DNA from: Clostridiaceae bacterium
Lineage (GTDB): Bacteria; Bacillota; Clostridia; DSM-8532
DNA: 41,338 bases
Assembly (NCBI GenBank): GCA_012520615.1
Contig: JAAYNX010000113.1
Coordinates: forward strand, 1-41,338
Direction: 5' to 3'
The notes below the pieces were generated by a model. The model did not search any database. It had not been told where the DNA came from and saw nothing but the letters and a program-made list of their open reading frames with translations. Below are positions 35,727 through 41,338 of this stretch, one piece after another (position 1 is the first letter of the stretch; each line of letters opens with the position of its first letter). A program made the position numbers and the translations under genes.

Positions 35727-36467
35727 CTATATGTTAATAATAAATCTTTCTCCTCGCCTTGAAATTGGTTTAACTTTATTAAAAGAAGAGTTTTCACCAG
35801 ATATTGTTTTAATGCGTTCCATAATTGTATAGTCATCGCCAAAATGCATCGGGAAAGCGATTTTAACATCAACTTCATTCAAAAACCATGACATTCCCAT
35901 TAATTCAGCGCTTTCCTGCCTAGGGTCTGCGGTAAGAAAGGCAATATCAACAGGGTGATTTTTAATTAAAGAAACTTCCCGTTTGAATCGAGCCGCCATA
36001 TCATTATTCCATGCTTTGGTCTCTTCGTTCCAATGCCACCAATTAAGGTCACCGGCATGATAAATATTTATACCGTCAACACTTATCAATAAGGCAATAC
36101 CTTCATCAGTGGATTTAAAAGTGTGAATTCTGGGATTATCTTCCTGATAAATCTCATTAGGCTTAAGAATCCTCGTCCATTCCCGATGGTTTTTCTTCGG
36201 AATATCATATGAAAGAAAGTAGCGGGCATTAGGAAGGTGTTCCTTCCAAGAAAGTATAATGGGATTGAAATGGTCGGGATGCCTGTGGGAAGCAAAAACA
36301 AATACTTCTTTGCTCTTGATTTCCGAAGTTTCTATCACTCCTGACGACAGGGAGCGTACGTGGTTCTCGCCCTCGTCTAAATAGTAATCGAATATTAAAA
36401 TTTTGTTTCCAATACCAACAGCGAAACCGCTATGGCCAAGATACCAGACTTCAATCTTCTTTTGCAC
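35727..36467 (-). CDS. Metallo-beta-lactamase fold hydrolase (UlaG-like)
   Basis: 246-aa protein with the HxHxDH metal motif at residues 61-66 (SHRHPDH), a later HAGDLN strand and a C-terminal His in FPMHFGDD. The start IEVWYLGHSGFAV is typical of the UlaG/L-ascorbate lactonase-like branch. The substrate is unknown. It is the last gene of the minus-strand redox operon, 13 bp after the small membrane protein, which could be coincidental. No signal peptide is seen, so it is cytoplasmic. Confidence 0.88.
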   Translation of the reverse strand: MQKKIEVWYLGHSGFAVGIGNKILIFDYYLDEGENHVRSLSSGVIETSEIKSKEVFVFASHRHPDHFNPIILSWKEHLPNARYFLSYDIPKKNHREWTRILKPNEIYQEDNPRIHTFKSTDEGIALLISVDGINIYHAGDLNWWHWNEETKAWNNDMAARFKREVSLIKNHPVDIAFLTADPRQESAELMGMSWFLNEVDVKIAFPMHFGDDYTIMERIKTISGENSSFNKVKPISRRGERFIINI

Positions 36468-36480
36468 AGTATTATCTCCT

Positions 36481-36825
36481 TTAAAAGCGCATAAAATTAA
36501 GCGGTTTTATAATTAAATAATTTATTTCAAACCAAAAGAAAGCAGCTATAGCAATGGTAATAATAATACAGAAAATTATATCAAAAAGGTCACGCTTTTT
36601 AATGGCATAAATAATTATTCCGAGATGATATACAAAACCTACTATGCCTATGTATGATGCGAAGTTTATTATAGGGCTAACAATGAATATCTCATATGCA
36701 TGAAAAAGCCCGGAAAGAAAGGGTATGTCTGTTAGTAAAGCAATTGCATACAGTATTGCAGGTACAATAATATCAAAATAAATGAGAAGCTTCCATCCTT
36801 TATCGAATTTAAAATTTTTCAGCAT
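36481..36825 (-). CDS. Small integral membrane protein of unknown function
   Basis: 114 aa starting MLKNFKFDKGWKLLIYF, with about three hydrophobic helices (IIVPAILYAIALL, ASYIGIVGFVYHLGIIIYAI, IIFCIIITIAIAAFFWFEI). I do not recognise a family. The start is the ATG at 36825 with GTGAGG upstream; the track start lies inside apbE. It begins 10 bp after the apbE stop, so translational coupling and a redox-related role are likely but unproven. Confidence 0.75.
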   Translation of the reverse strand: MLKNFKFDKGWKLLIYFDIIVPAILYAIALLTDIPFLSGLFHAYEIFIVSPIINFASYIGIVGFVYHLGIIIYAIKKRDLFDIIFCIIITIAIAAFFWFEINYLIIKPLNFMRF

Positions 36826-36835
36826 ATCATAAACC

Positions 36836-37924
36836 TCACTTATCTGTATTAGAAGCCCCACCCATATACTTCATAACGCTTTTAGCATTATCAGTGGCTT
36901 GGATTGTTCCGTCCTTCATTATCCAAATAGCTTCAACACCAATGCTCTCCGCAAGTTTTTTGCCTTCCTCAAAGGGAGTTAAAAATATTGTGGTGGACAT
37001 AAAATCGGCAACACCCGAATCTTTTGCTACTATTGAAACTGCTCTAAAATACTCCGCAGGCATCAGCGTTGTGGGATCTATTAAATGATGATACATTTTT
37101 CCGTCTACTTCATACTGTCTTTGATAATCGCCGCTCGTTACAAGAGATTGATCATTTATATATAGTATGTCAAGTGAGGGTTCGCTGGGATTATTGGGAT
37201 TGCCGTCAGGATCCTGAATACCGATACCCCATTTGTTTCTTGAGACGTCCTTTGGTTGACCGACAGTCCTAACATTACCTCCAGAGCTGATAATAAAACT
37301 TGTATAACCTTGTTCCGTCAGTTCATTTACTACTATCTCGGTTGCGAATCCTTTAGCAACAGCACCTACATCGAGGCGCATGTTTTTCTCCTCAAGATAT
37401 ACTGTTTTCTTATCTAAATCCACTATAACCTTGTCAATATCAGTGTAATTCATAGCATTTTGAAGCGTATCAAGTGGCGGTACTTTCGCTTCTTCGGGGT
37501 CTCCAGTTCCTTCCTCCCGATAATCGTGCCAGATTGAGAGAACTGAACCCAGCGCAATATTGCATTTTCCATTAGTTTTATTGTACCATTCTTTTGAAAA
37601 GACTATTAAATCTATAATTTCCTGCTGAACCTCAACAGGCTTAATTCCCGCATTATCATTAATTGTTTTAATATTATTGATACCTTCATAATCATTGTAT
37701 ATATCATAGAGCTTATTAAGCTCCATGAATCGTTCCTGACCTTTTTCAACCATAAGTTCAAATTCATCCGGACTATTGGCATAGCCCATGAATTGTATAA
37801 CAGTATCAAAAGCACCGAGAAATTCATAGGAATATTTATTGTATTCCGATGTATTTTTAGCTGAGCATGCGCTAAACATTAATGCAATTATGAGAATAAG
37901 TAGCAGCTTGGGTTTTATTTTCAT
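36836..37924 (-). CDS. apbE: FAD:protein FMN transferase (ApbE), lipoprotein
   Basis: Transfers FMN from FAD to Ser/Thr of extracytoplasmic proteins. The lipobox is LMFSAC, so it is anchored outside the membrane. Family motifs are RLDVGAVAKGFATEIV, SSGGNVRTVG, YHHLIDPTT and STTIFLTPFEEG. The start is ATG 37924, with GAGGTG upstream; the track used GTG 37930. The length is 362 aa. With the PplA-like lipoprotein, prenyl synthase and NDH-2 upstream it matches FmnB of the Listeria electron-transfer locus. Confidence 0.94.
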   Translation of the reverse strand: MKIKPKLLLILIIALMFSACSAKNTSEYNKYSYEFLGAFDTVIQFMGYANSPDEFELMVEKGQERFMELNKLYDIYNDYEGINNIKTINDNAGIKPVEVQQEIIDLIVFSKEWYNKTNGKCNIALGSVLSIWHDYREEGTGDPEEAKVPPLDTLQNAMNYTDIDKVIVDLDKKTVYLEEKNMRLDVGAVAKGFATEIVVNELTEQGYTSFIISSGGNVRTVGQPKDVSRNKWGIGIQDPDGNPNNPSEPSLDILYINDQSLVTSGDYQRQYEVDGKMYHHLIDPTTLMPAEYFRAVSIVAKDSGVADFMSTTIFLTPFEEGKKLAESIGVEAIWIMKDGTIQATDNAKSVMKYMGGASNTDK

Positions 37925-37949
37925 ATCCACCTCAGTTACACATAATTAA

Positions 37950-37980
37950 AGAGAACCCCTCCTTAAAGAAGGGGTTCTTT
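37950..37980 (-). terminator. Attenuating hairpin between lipoprotein and apbE
   Basis: GAACCCCT (37953-37960) pairs with AGGGGTTC (37970-37977), and flanking bases lengthen the stem. On the minus strand a short TCTTT segment follows. It probably lets the lipoprotein be made in excess of ApbE. Confidence 0.65.
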
Positions 37981-37998
37981 AGGATTATGTACCTAATA

Positions 37999-38502
37999 CT
38001 ATTTTGCGTTTGCAACAGCCTCGGCAACAGCGGCTTGATAATCACTAATAGAAACGGAAACCTTACTCTTAAGATCAGCATCTTCAGAGGCATCCTTAAT
38101 GGCTGTAATTTTATCAACTGTCTTTCCAACCATCCACTTTTCCAATTCAGCAATTTGCTCAAACCACTCTCTTGCAGATCCAGCTTTTTTCATACCATAG
38201 TCGTAACCAAGTTCGACTTTAGTTTTTTGTTCTGCATCTTTGTCTGAGGTGATTTTTCCAGTTGTATCAAAGTTTACTTTTGTCTGAGCAGTATCAATAA
38301 CTACACCCAGAATCTTATTTGATGAGTCAACAGTTACTGCTGCCATAACAGTATCAACCTGTGCTAGGCCCTCAGCTTCTGCTGTTGCATCCTTTGATTT
38401 TCCAATGGAAATGTTGTGTCCGAGTCCTGTTTTAACAGATGCCGCTGCACCGCAGCCTGCCAAAAGGACTGCTACTAATGTGAGTGCCAGTACTTTCTTC
38501 AT
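37999..38502 (-). CDS. PplA-like extracytoplasmic lipoprotein
   Basis: 167-aa lipoprotein with lipobox LLAGC (Cys17). The mature part has GLGHNISIGKSKDATAEAEGL, a segment VTVDSSNKILGVVIDTAQTK, YDYGMKKAGSAREWFEQIAEL and a C-terminal helix. The layout resembles FMN-binding-domain lipoproteins such as Listeria PplA. I find no SGAT-type flavinylation motif; the region where it might fall reads VSVSISDYQAAV. AGGAGG precedes the ATG. It is encoded between the prenyl synthase and apbE. Its being an ApbE substrate is inference, weakened by the missing motif. Confidence 0.75.
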   Translation of the reverse strand: MKKVLALTLVAVLLAGCGAAASVKTGLGHNISIGKSKDATAEAEGLAQVDTVMAAVTVDSSNKILGVVIDTAQTKVNFDTTGKITSDKDAEQKTKVELGYDYGMKKAGSAREWFEQIAELEKWMVGKTVDKITAIKDASEDADLKSKVSVSISDYQAAVAEAVANAK

Positions 38503-38559
38503 AATATCCTCCTAATATAAAAATGTATATATGCAAAGAGCGTTTTTGCGTTTTAGCCT

Positions 38560-39498
38560 TTACAGCCAGTTAACAATCTCACTCATAGCTTCAGTATATG
38601 GGGTATAGGGTATTTTTTCTATATAATGCATACACTTCTCTTTATAGCGGTTTTTAAGCTTCATTGTATCCTGAACACCACCCGATGTTCTGATACTATT
38701 TAATATACTATTTATATCACCATTGCCTTCAAAGAAAACATTAACTTGATTTATAAAATCAGGGTTATTCTTTACTGCCATTATTACCGGAAGGGTTGCT
38801 ATACCTTCTTTTAAATCATTCAGAACAGGTTTTCCTTCTTTTGATTGGTCAGAGAGAATATCAAGTAAGTCATCTCTTATTTGAAAAGCAGCACCGAAGC
38901 TTAGACCGAATCTGCCAAACTGCCTAGAAATATCATCAGAAAGATTGGCTGTTTTTGCTCCCAATACTAAGGATGCCGAAAATAAAACTCCTGTTTTACC
39001 CAGTATACGTTTTATATAATTATACACACTGGAAACAGAATATTTACTTATATATTGTTCTACTTCGCCCTCGCAAAGAAGGGAGATTGCTCTTGCTAAA
39101 ACATCAAGCTTTTCGGGTTTCAAACCTGTTTTTAATAGCAGCCTCAAAGATTTTGTAAGAAGATAATCTCCTGTATAAACCGCTAAATTGGTGTTATGCT
39201 TCTCAGCGAGGGTTATCTTTCCTCTTCGGGTTTTGGCATTGTCAATAATATCATCGTGTATTAGTGTAGCTGCATGCAGTACTTCAACAGATGCTGCGGC
39301 GGGGAATACTCTTTTTCTGTCATAGTCACCATGTAGTGCTGCTATGATAGTAAACGCAGGGCGTAATCTTTTTCCTCCTGATAGCACAGCATCTTTTGAA
39401 GCATTCATTAAAAATTTATTTCGGGAAGCCATTACTGTTTCAAGATAACTCTCAAAGGCAGCTAACTCTTCGTTAATAACAGGGAATTTGTTCCACAA
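38560..39498 (-). CDS. Polyprenyl (heptaprenyl-type) diphosphate synthase
   Basis: 312-aa trans-isoprenyl synthase. The first Asp-rich motif is LIHDDIIDNAKTRRG and the second FQIRDDLLDILSD; GGKRLRPAF is the substrate segment. It makes the quinone side chain. TTG 39498 is the start, with AGGAGG nine bases upstream. In the Listeria electron-transfer locus a similar enzyme (DmkB) makes a dedicated demethylmenaquinone tail. Position between NDH-2 and the lipoprotein supports that reading. Chain length cannot be read from sequence. Confidence 0.92.
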   Translation of the reverse strand: MWNKFPVINEELAAFESYLETVMASRNKFLMNASKDAVLSGGKRLRPAFTIIAALHGDYDRKRVFPAAASVEVLHAATLIHDDIIDNAKTRRGKITLAEKHNTNLAVYTGDYLLTKSLRLLLKTGLKPEKLDVLARAISLLCEGEVEQYISKYSVSSVYNYIKRILGKTGVLFSASLVLGAKTANLSDDISRQFGRFGLSFGAAFQIRDDLLDILSDQSKEGKPVLNDLKEGIATLPVIMAVKNNPDFINQVNVFFEGNGDINSILNSIRTSGGVQDTMKLKNRYKEKCMHYIEKIPYTPYTEAMSEIVNWL

Positions 39499-39553
39499 TG
39501 CGTTTTACCTCCTAGATAATATGTGCATATGGATATTATGGCATAGGGGAACA

Positions 39554-41224
39554 TTAATCAAACCGATCTAAACTACCCTTGAAGAATAATCTAAATTTCT
39601 TATTTTTCCAGAAGCTTTCCCAAACATTGTTAAGGTAAGGGATAAGGTAATAATCCAAACCAAAAGCTCTGCCCGCTCCGCCCATAATGGCAATAGATGC
39701 AAATAGCATCCACCAACTCTTTTCGTAAAGACCTGTGGAGGACATAAACATTACTATTAAACTCAAGGAAATAAATGAGCCAATAAAAGTTAATGCACCG
39801 CCAAGGAGCATAAGTCCTACAAGAATCTCAAGAACAACTACGAGAACCTGGAAGAACATTGCAACACCATCATTAGCCAATACAATATTACGTAAGAACC
39901 AAGGCACCAGATTGAAATCACCAAAATGGAAGAACTCAAGTCTGGAAAAATGTTGGGCAATAATGTCTTCGCCACCGGCTATACGAGTTTCGGTTTCTAT
40001 AAAGAAATTGATAATACCTGTTTTGATTCTGAAAACTTCATCAATTTTTGTTACAAAAGCTGCAGTAGGTGTGGCAGCACTTGTACCATCATTTGCCATG
40101 CCAAGGAAGGCCGCAAGTTTTGGTGAACTAAACCAGCCATCGGCAACTTTTACCAAGCCTTCATATAACCACATTCCACCTAAGAACAAACGCAGGGGAG
40201 TGAGCCACCATGCTTGTATGCGCGTTGACCAGTGCTTTTCAACCAGTATCTTTCTTTGTCTTCTCTCCAACACCTCATGATATAGGTATCTAGAAATACC
40301 CCTAAATCCAGTAATTTCCCAAAGGTAATGAATGTTGACAAGGAACTTCATTACGATTGAAAGCCAAACGGGAAGACTTTTACCCATGATTTCGGAAACG
40401 CAGAAATAATTACCTACACTAACCATTGTGCCATGGAATTTAACCGACACTTTTTTCTGCTCTTTTCCACGAATGTCGTTAAGTATATTTTCAGCAGCAC
40501 CATGGGCTGTTTGAATAGCATTCTCAACCATTGCAGCGTAGGGTCTGCCGTCTTCGCCAGCCAACCCCCCAAAGTCACCAACAGCATAAACGTTTTTATA
40601 TTCGGTTCTGCAGAATTCGTCAACCTTGGCTCTATTTTGCCTGTTTGCTCTTTCAATATCACATTTTTCAGCATCATCGCAAGCTTTTATCCCGGCACAC
40701 CAAATGACAGTTCTGGTTTGAATCTCGCCGCCTTCATACACTAAGCTATGGTCAGTTGCTGAAGTTATTCTAGTGTCGAGCATTACTTCAACTTTAAGTT
40801 TTTTCTCCAGATATTTGTGAGCCTTAGCGGCATTTTTCTCTCCTAAAGTGTTCAGAATACGGGAGAGCATGTCTACAATAATAAGCCGGACATCTTTACG
40901 AGGAATTTTGTGTTCCTTACAAAGGGACTTGACCCAAATTCCAAGCTCACCTATCATTTCAACCCCGGTGAATCCTGCTCCGGAAACAACGAATGTCAGA
41001 AGGCGCTTTCTTTCTGTTTCGTCTTTTTCTTGGCTAGCTAAAATGAAGCACTTCTTTATATGTTCACGTATTCTTACGGCATCATCAAAACTCCAAAGAG
41101 TAAAAGCATGCTCGTCAAGACCGGGAATATCGAAGTAATTTGGAGTACTCCCCATTGCTGTAACCAAGTAATCATAATCGTAAGTTTTATTCTCAGAGGA
41201 AACTTTATTATTATGATTAGAGTG
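39554..41224 (-). pseudogene. 5'-truncated type II NADH dehydrogenase with membrane C-terminus
   Basis: The open frame covers NDH-2 from about residue 100 on: YDYDYLVTAMGSTPNYFDIPG, the NADH-binding Rossmann loop VVSGAGFTGVEMIGELG and the FAD-contacting NVYAVGDFGG. A C-terminal extension with several hydrophobic helices (LFLGGMWLYEGLVKVA, FFQVLVVVLEILVGLMLLGGA) resembles the DoxX-like tail of Ndh2 from the Listeria locus. The N-terminal FAD GxGxxG region is absent. An in-frame TGA at 41225-41227 and unrelated sequence lie directly upstream. The first usable codons are TTG 41167 or ATG 41155, neither giving a complete enzyme. A damaged gene is the best reading. Confidence 0.85.
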
Positions 41225-41236
41225 TCAAAAGACACT
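41221..41236. repeat. 16-bp palindrome at the NDH-2 break point
   Basis: AGTGTC-AAAA-GACACT is a perfect inverted repeat exactly where NDH-2 homology ends. The remaining ~100 bases contain no recognisable gene in any frame. It could be the end of an insertion sequence whose body lies beyond the window; the family is not identified. Confidence 0.5.
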
Positions 41237-41338
41237 ACCAATAAATTATATTGTTAATTGCACCTTGAAAATTTAACACAATACCTTTTTTCCAGTCCTA
41301 TGATGAGTTTTGGAGCCAATTTAGGCCAATAATGAATA

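Follow-up and report, generated by a model that had tools for sequence, protein, structure and literature searches.

A probable clostridial variant of the flavin-based extracellular electron transfer operon, with a divergent lipoprotein and a distinct ApbE clade

What do six adjacent minus-strand genes at the end of a Clostridiaceae contig encode, and do they belong with the extracellular electron transfer (EET) locus of Listeria? The Listeria gene set exports electrons from the cell to external acceptors, and the locus in Listeria monocytogenes has as its members fmnA, dmkA, fmnB, pplA, ndh2, eetA, eetB, and dmkB. Here, we propose, with a probability of roughly 0.68, that the clostridial operon is a variant of flavin-based EET. 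We would place it as a known kind of system carrying a variant flavoprotein and enzyme pair; as judged from sequence comparison, what appears new relative to Listeria is the divergent lipoprotein, its altered site, and an ApbE clade of its own.

The window, by which we mean the whole stretch of DNA analysed, is contig C177 in its entirety (41,338 bases), from an assembly of 2.67 Mb that comprises 256 contigs and is 98% complete. Six consecutive frames with short gaps occupy positions 35727-41224 of its minus strand. They encode, in order, a type II NADH dehydrogenase (NDH-2) with a C-terminal membrane tail (39554-41224; Pfam Pyr_redox_2), a DmkB-like polyprenyl diphosphate synthase (38560-39498; polyprenyl_synt, 2.5e-56), a lipoprotein with an LAGC lipobox in the position of pplA (37999-38502), an FmnB-like lipoprotein of the ApbE type, that is, an FAD:protein FMN transferase (36836-37930; ApbE, 2.6e-63), a small membrane protein (36481-36825), and a putative hydrolase of the metallo-beta-lactamase fold (35727-36467). 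The ten window ORFs that were scanned are housekeeping and transport genes, and the window thus gives no support to the suggestion in the sequence-only reading that the host is cellulolytic; among the congeners, one is listed under the name Ruminiclostridium sp. UBA10951.

Relatives keep these genes together. Neighbourhood comparison found the order NDH-2, prenyl synthase, lipoprotein, ApbE, small membrane protein, hydrolase to be identical in 10 of 13 congeners, and in most of these ten the operon is followed by homologues of the next two genes of the window (ProA-type and RF3-type). Since the congeners share the gene order, the grouping is not due to chance, and the closely spaced six-gene run described from the sequence is real. 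All eight congeners whose contigs extend far enough carry EetA (a NusG_II protein) and EetB (PF07456) upstream. In other families of the class (L039, L115, L119, L121, and L122), a single run carries NDH-2, prenyl synthase, DmkA, EetA, EetB, a two-domain lipoprotein, and ApbE. The proposed check for eetA, eetB, and dmkA homologues beyond the contig end was borne out in part: the first two stand upstream in the eight congeners, and the genome has a MenA/DmkA-like gene (39% identity to Enterococcus raffinosus MenA) that is unlinked to the operon, but EetB is absent from the assembly. Two congeners (G003 and G011) have EetB, as a fragment in G003, but neither an ApbE nor the lipoprotein was found in them (L052 and L072 in G003), which reflects either loss or an assembly gap.

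How closely do the individual proteins match those of Listeria? The NDH-2 matches two entries from that genus that are catalogued as plasmids, and the reference locus was taken from one of them. Across 630 residues (1-630), the tail included, the intact NDH-2 of a congener and Listeria Ndh2 share 36% identity, similarity in the tail having been anticipated. The prenyl synthase of the window is 36% identical to DmkB (E=2e-61) and its ApbE 32% identical to FmnB (E=2e-44), FmnB also being its closest solved relative in the PDB, while the EetA and EetB of congeners reach 39% and 37% identity with their Listeria counterparts. Through these five homologous proteins, linked and at 32-39% identity, the last two lying upstream in the congeners, the core interpretation as a Listeria-type EET locus holds. 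The assignment of the first four genes to ndh2, dmkB, pplA, and fmnB stands for three of them at 32-36% identity; for pplA, which has no match at the level of sequence, it holds only by position and by remote profile homology. The operon further differs from the Listeria locus in that dmkA is unlinked, the small membrane protein and the hydrolase are added, and the ApbE falls in another clade than FmnB.

The description of the first gene as an NDH-2 with a membrane tail is correct as to domain and tail, but the window copy is incomplete at its 5' end, lacking about 105 N-terminal residues (the congener NDH-2 matches this genome only from residue 93 on). Homology to congener ndh2 ends near 41213 and gives way to a TGA in frame and then to roughly 113 bases without homology that extend to the contig end; positions 41225-41338 are either an assembly artefact or a disruption. 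The assembly contains a single copy of these bases and no plasmid record matches them; an insertion element is thus no more likely than an artefact, and we discarded it. No second copy of the ndh2 start was found in the assembly, nor was EetB; the contig stops before the eetA/eetB position, and eetA is likewise missing. One might conclude from the TGA and junction bases, from the absence of another ndh2 start and of EetB in a 98% complete assembly, and from the two congeners without ApbE (G003 and G011) that the operon is broken in this genome, with ndh2 disrupted at 41213-41225 and eetA and eetB lost. We consider this very unlikely, as the junction falls at the end of one contig among 256 and all frames downstream of it are intact and closely similar to those of congeners. 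In addition, the contigs of congeners G002 and G007 also break off within ndh2, with the EetB of G002 at the edge of another contig, which makes an assembly break the simplest reading of the window ndh2 and disruption the alternative.

The lipoprotein is the member that least resembles Listeria. PplA has two FMN_bind domains with the motif [ST]GA[ST], whereas the window lipoprotein has one domain, lacks the motif, and shows no direct similarity to PplA (BLAST E of about 0.1 and no usable HMM score). BLAST and a family HMM were both used to look for direct homology, to the PplA of Listeria and to that of Enterococcus, and it was rejected for want of a signal. Pfam returned no match for the window lipoprotein, FMN_bind (PF04205) included, and only weak FMN_bind matches for 7 of 97 relatives (best 0.0087); Listeria PplA itself matches FMN_bind at 1.8e-12. 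Profile searches assigned the NDH-2, the prenyl synthase, and the ApbE but left the lipoprotein and the small membrane protein unmatched, with the hydrolase at 23.8 bits against a cut-off of 24. The AlphaFold model of the lipoprotein is confident (pLDDT 91.6), and Foldseek against the PDB aligned it to IscU-like folds (E=0.03), with no FMN_bind entry among the matches listed; neither this model nor that of the small membrane protein gave an informative match. The missing PplA match, the missing Pfam FMN_bind match, and the absence of FMN_bind from the Foldseek matches listed would all weigh against the EET reading.

Profile comparison, in turn, points to a distant kinship. A profile of 97 family domains matched a single PDB chain, 2kzx (E=0.0022), with the family motif D-L-T-S-x-V-T falling on D-A-I-S-G-A-T. 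Comparison by hhalign with FMN-bind domains, Listeria and Enterococcus PplA among them, gave 97% probability (E of about 1e-10) in the same register as 2kzx, and an unrelated control gave 0.1%. As no direct PplA match exists, homology is drawn from this profile comparison through SGAT-bearing intermediates, and by these alignments the lipoprotein is a remote relative of FMN-binding domains. The 2kzx-type domain is thus a remote homologue with the site in exact register, although it keeps D-A-I-S-G-A-T, is shorter, and matches at an E of only 0.0022. Another point of comparison is FMN-bind2, a longer FMN-bind domain often found in even numbers of copies (PMC11334425). The lipoprotein family, mostly two-domain, resembles it in this respect; its site has V-[T/S] at the end where FMN-bind2 has GA-[T/S], and the window genus departs from FMN-bind2 in having a single domain, which perhaps forms a homodimer. 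Most other taxa have two tandem domains. The family is widespread in Clostridia, usually adjoining ApbE, and one scan of species genomes recovered 482 relatives, including those of Geosporobacter ferrireducens, Alkaliphilus, and Sedimentibacter. Calling the lipoprotein "PplA-like" is apt for its position and remote profile homology, but not for the site where PplA carries its flavin.

What, then, has become of that site? In place of [ST]GA[ST] the window lipoprotein has D-L-K-S-K-V-S (residues 143-149; 38056-38076, minus strand), which aligns to the D-x-x-[ST]-G-A-[ST] of SGAT-bearing domains and makes Ser149 the candidate flavinylated residue. Among 168 distinct family domains, the last residue is T in 166 and S in 2, the penultimate residue is V in 167 and C in 1, and none has GA; the general pattern of the proposed attachment site is [DE]-L-x-S-x-V-[T/S]. 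Related domains carry intermediate sites (SGAS, SGVS, AGVT, and ASVS), and other clostridial relatives of 2kzx (L251 and L252-L265), in one to three copies, have sites without GA, for example TVASVS and IVPGVT. Thr94 is as invariant as the proposed site across the 168 domains, so conservation alone is no proof of it. In one tested protein, changes of Gly to Ala and of Ala to Val in the motif weakened flavinylation (PMC12052999); given this, a dedicated ApbE branch fits a shifted code without proving it. From the alignment, we infer that the lipoprotein is probably flavinylated at Ser149.

The neighbouring ApbE supports this view. It aligns with the Asp, Ser, His, and Arg named as catalytic residues of FmnB (PMC12052999), the residue numbers having been matched to alignment columns by us. 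An ApbE adjoins 103 of 118 lipoprotein genes, a count in which some genomes are present twice, once from each collection, and about 9 of the 15 exceptions lie where a contig or locus ends. A tree of 107 dereplicated ApbEs, several of whose branches are long, places all 80 lipoprotein neighbours on one side of a branch with 100/100 support, and the other side holds 21 sequences, Listeria and Enterococcus FmnB among them. Six further ApbEs on the lipoprotein side are not adjacent to a lipoprotein gene in the stretch examined; at least some of their genomes carry the lipoprotein elsewhere. At two loci (L233 in G265 and L234 in G336), a second ApbE belonging to this clade lies close to a homologue of EetA, and the same stretch contains an open frame bearing TGAS. 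In G056, a complete genome in a single contig, the only ApbE adjoins the lipoprotein, and FMN_bind proteins, RnfG therefore included, are absent. The reasoning applied to orphan ApbEs in PMC8238504, when extended to G056, suggests that the lipoprotein is likely the substrate of its neighbouring ApbE.

The gap between the two genes also holds a strong 12-pair hairpin with a T-rich tail (37952-37978, minus strand) that resembles a terminator. Such hairpins occur in 56 of 70 lipoprotein-apbE gaps; the corresponding counts are 25 of 210 for shuffles and 4 of 73 for the remaining gaps of these operons. Plausibly, it would act as a partial terminator, by which the substrate comes to exceed the enzyme.

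The genome, however, offers its ApbE a second client. It has one ApbE and an Rnf operon on another contig (C56, L050), in which the sites of RnfG and RnfD read T-A-A-T and S-Y-A-T in place of SGAT. The sole ApbE must also serve this RnfG. The sites vary among the congeners (SGAT, TAAT, and SSAT), and the RnfG of G003, where no ApbE was found, has A-S-A-T. Pairs of pplA(cad) and apbE have been reported only in genomes without rnf (PMC7074142), a pattern from which the window genome, with both an EET-type operon and Rnf, departs. An ApbE needed by RnfG, together with the loss of GA from every family domain and the absence of FMN_bind from the fold-search matches listed, would suit a lipoprotein that has lost covalent flavinylation and binds flavin non-covalently or has another role, the ApbE mainly serving Rnf. 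We hold this to be unlikely: ApbE stands beside the lipoprotein across the class and in its own clade, the hydroxyl of the site is invariant, and G056 keeps both genes without any RnfG to serve.

The last two genes had been put forward as new components, and both are indeed conserved members of the operon, but neither could be given a function. The small membrane protein has four predicted helices with His42 and His67 and starts at the ATG at 36825, about 10 bases past the apbE stop, the start at 36861 being merely that of a longer open frame. It had no match in Pfam, the PDB, or the fold search, and it was found only in the window genus (219 genera sampled), with weaker relatives adjoining ApbE in four other lineages (L146, L151, L152, and L187). 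One histidine is invariant and the second is kept in 14 of 15 proteins, His67 being missing in L187. In its small size, membrane nature, conserved histidines, and place next to apbE, it resembles DUF4405 and FezC, cytochromes associated with flavinylation (PMC11334425), from which it differs in having four helices rather than six and no Pfam DUF4405 match. By this analogy a comparable cytochrome role is possible; because His67 is lost in L187 and DUF4405 is unmatched, heme binding is kept only as a lead. The hydrolase, seen only in the window genus, falls just below the Lactamase_B_3 cut-off in Pfam and has no match in the PDB; it carries HRHPDH, HAGD, and MHF(G/W) blocks, with the metal motif conserved. 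As a tentative extension, for which we would give somewhat less than even odds, clostridial surface flavoproteins across the class would use a second code, [DE]-L-x-S-x-V-[T/S], read by the dedicated ApbE clade, and in the window genus they would be partnered by the two-histidine membrane protein, which may pass electrons from quinol to flavoprotein.

How might such an operon work? By analogy with Listeria, NDH-2 would oxidise cytosolic NADH and reduce a membrane quinone, whose tail would be supplied by the prenyl synthase of the operon together with the unlinked MenA/DmkA-like prenyltransferase. EetB, upstream in congeners and described as an FAD exporter (PMC9973259), would supply ApbE with extracellular FAD for the transfer of FMN to the lipoprotein, and this membrane-anchored protein would then pass electrons from quinol to external acceptors. 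Each functional step of this electron flow is inferred from the counterpart system. Instead of reducing ferric iron or another external acceptor, the flavinylated lipoprotein might pass its electrons to a dedicated reductase outside the cytosol or to a redox reaction with a protective role, as flavinylated proteins serve many extracytosolic reductases (PMC8238504). Most family members outside EET operons stand with ApbE alone, and 65 of the 116 loci counted lack a recognised EET gene within the stretch examined. For the window genus, where the full ndh2-dmkB-eetA-eetB set is linked as in Listeria, we regard this alternative as somewhat unlikely and retain extracellular electron transfer as the probable role of the operon.

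Surveys of flavin-based electron transfer depend on FMN_bind and [ST]GA[ST], and the lipoprotein family escapes both. If its members are flavinylated, the family adds to the range of substrates known for ApbE and would provide a plausible route of electron export for many Clostridia.
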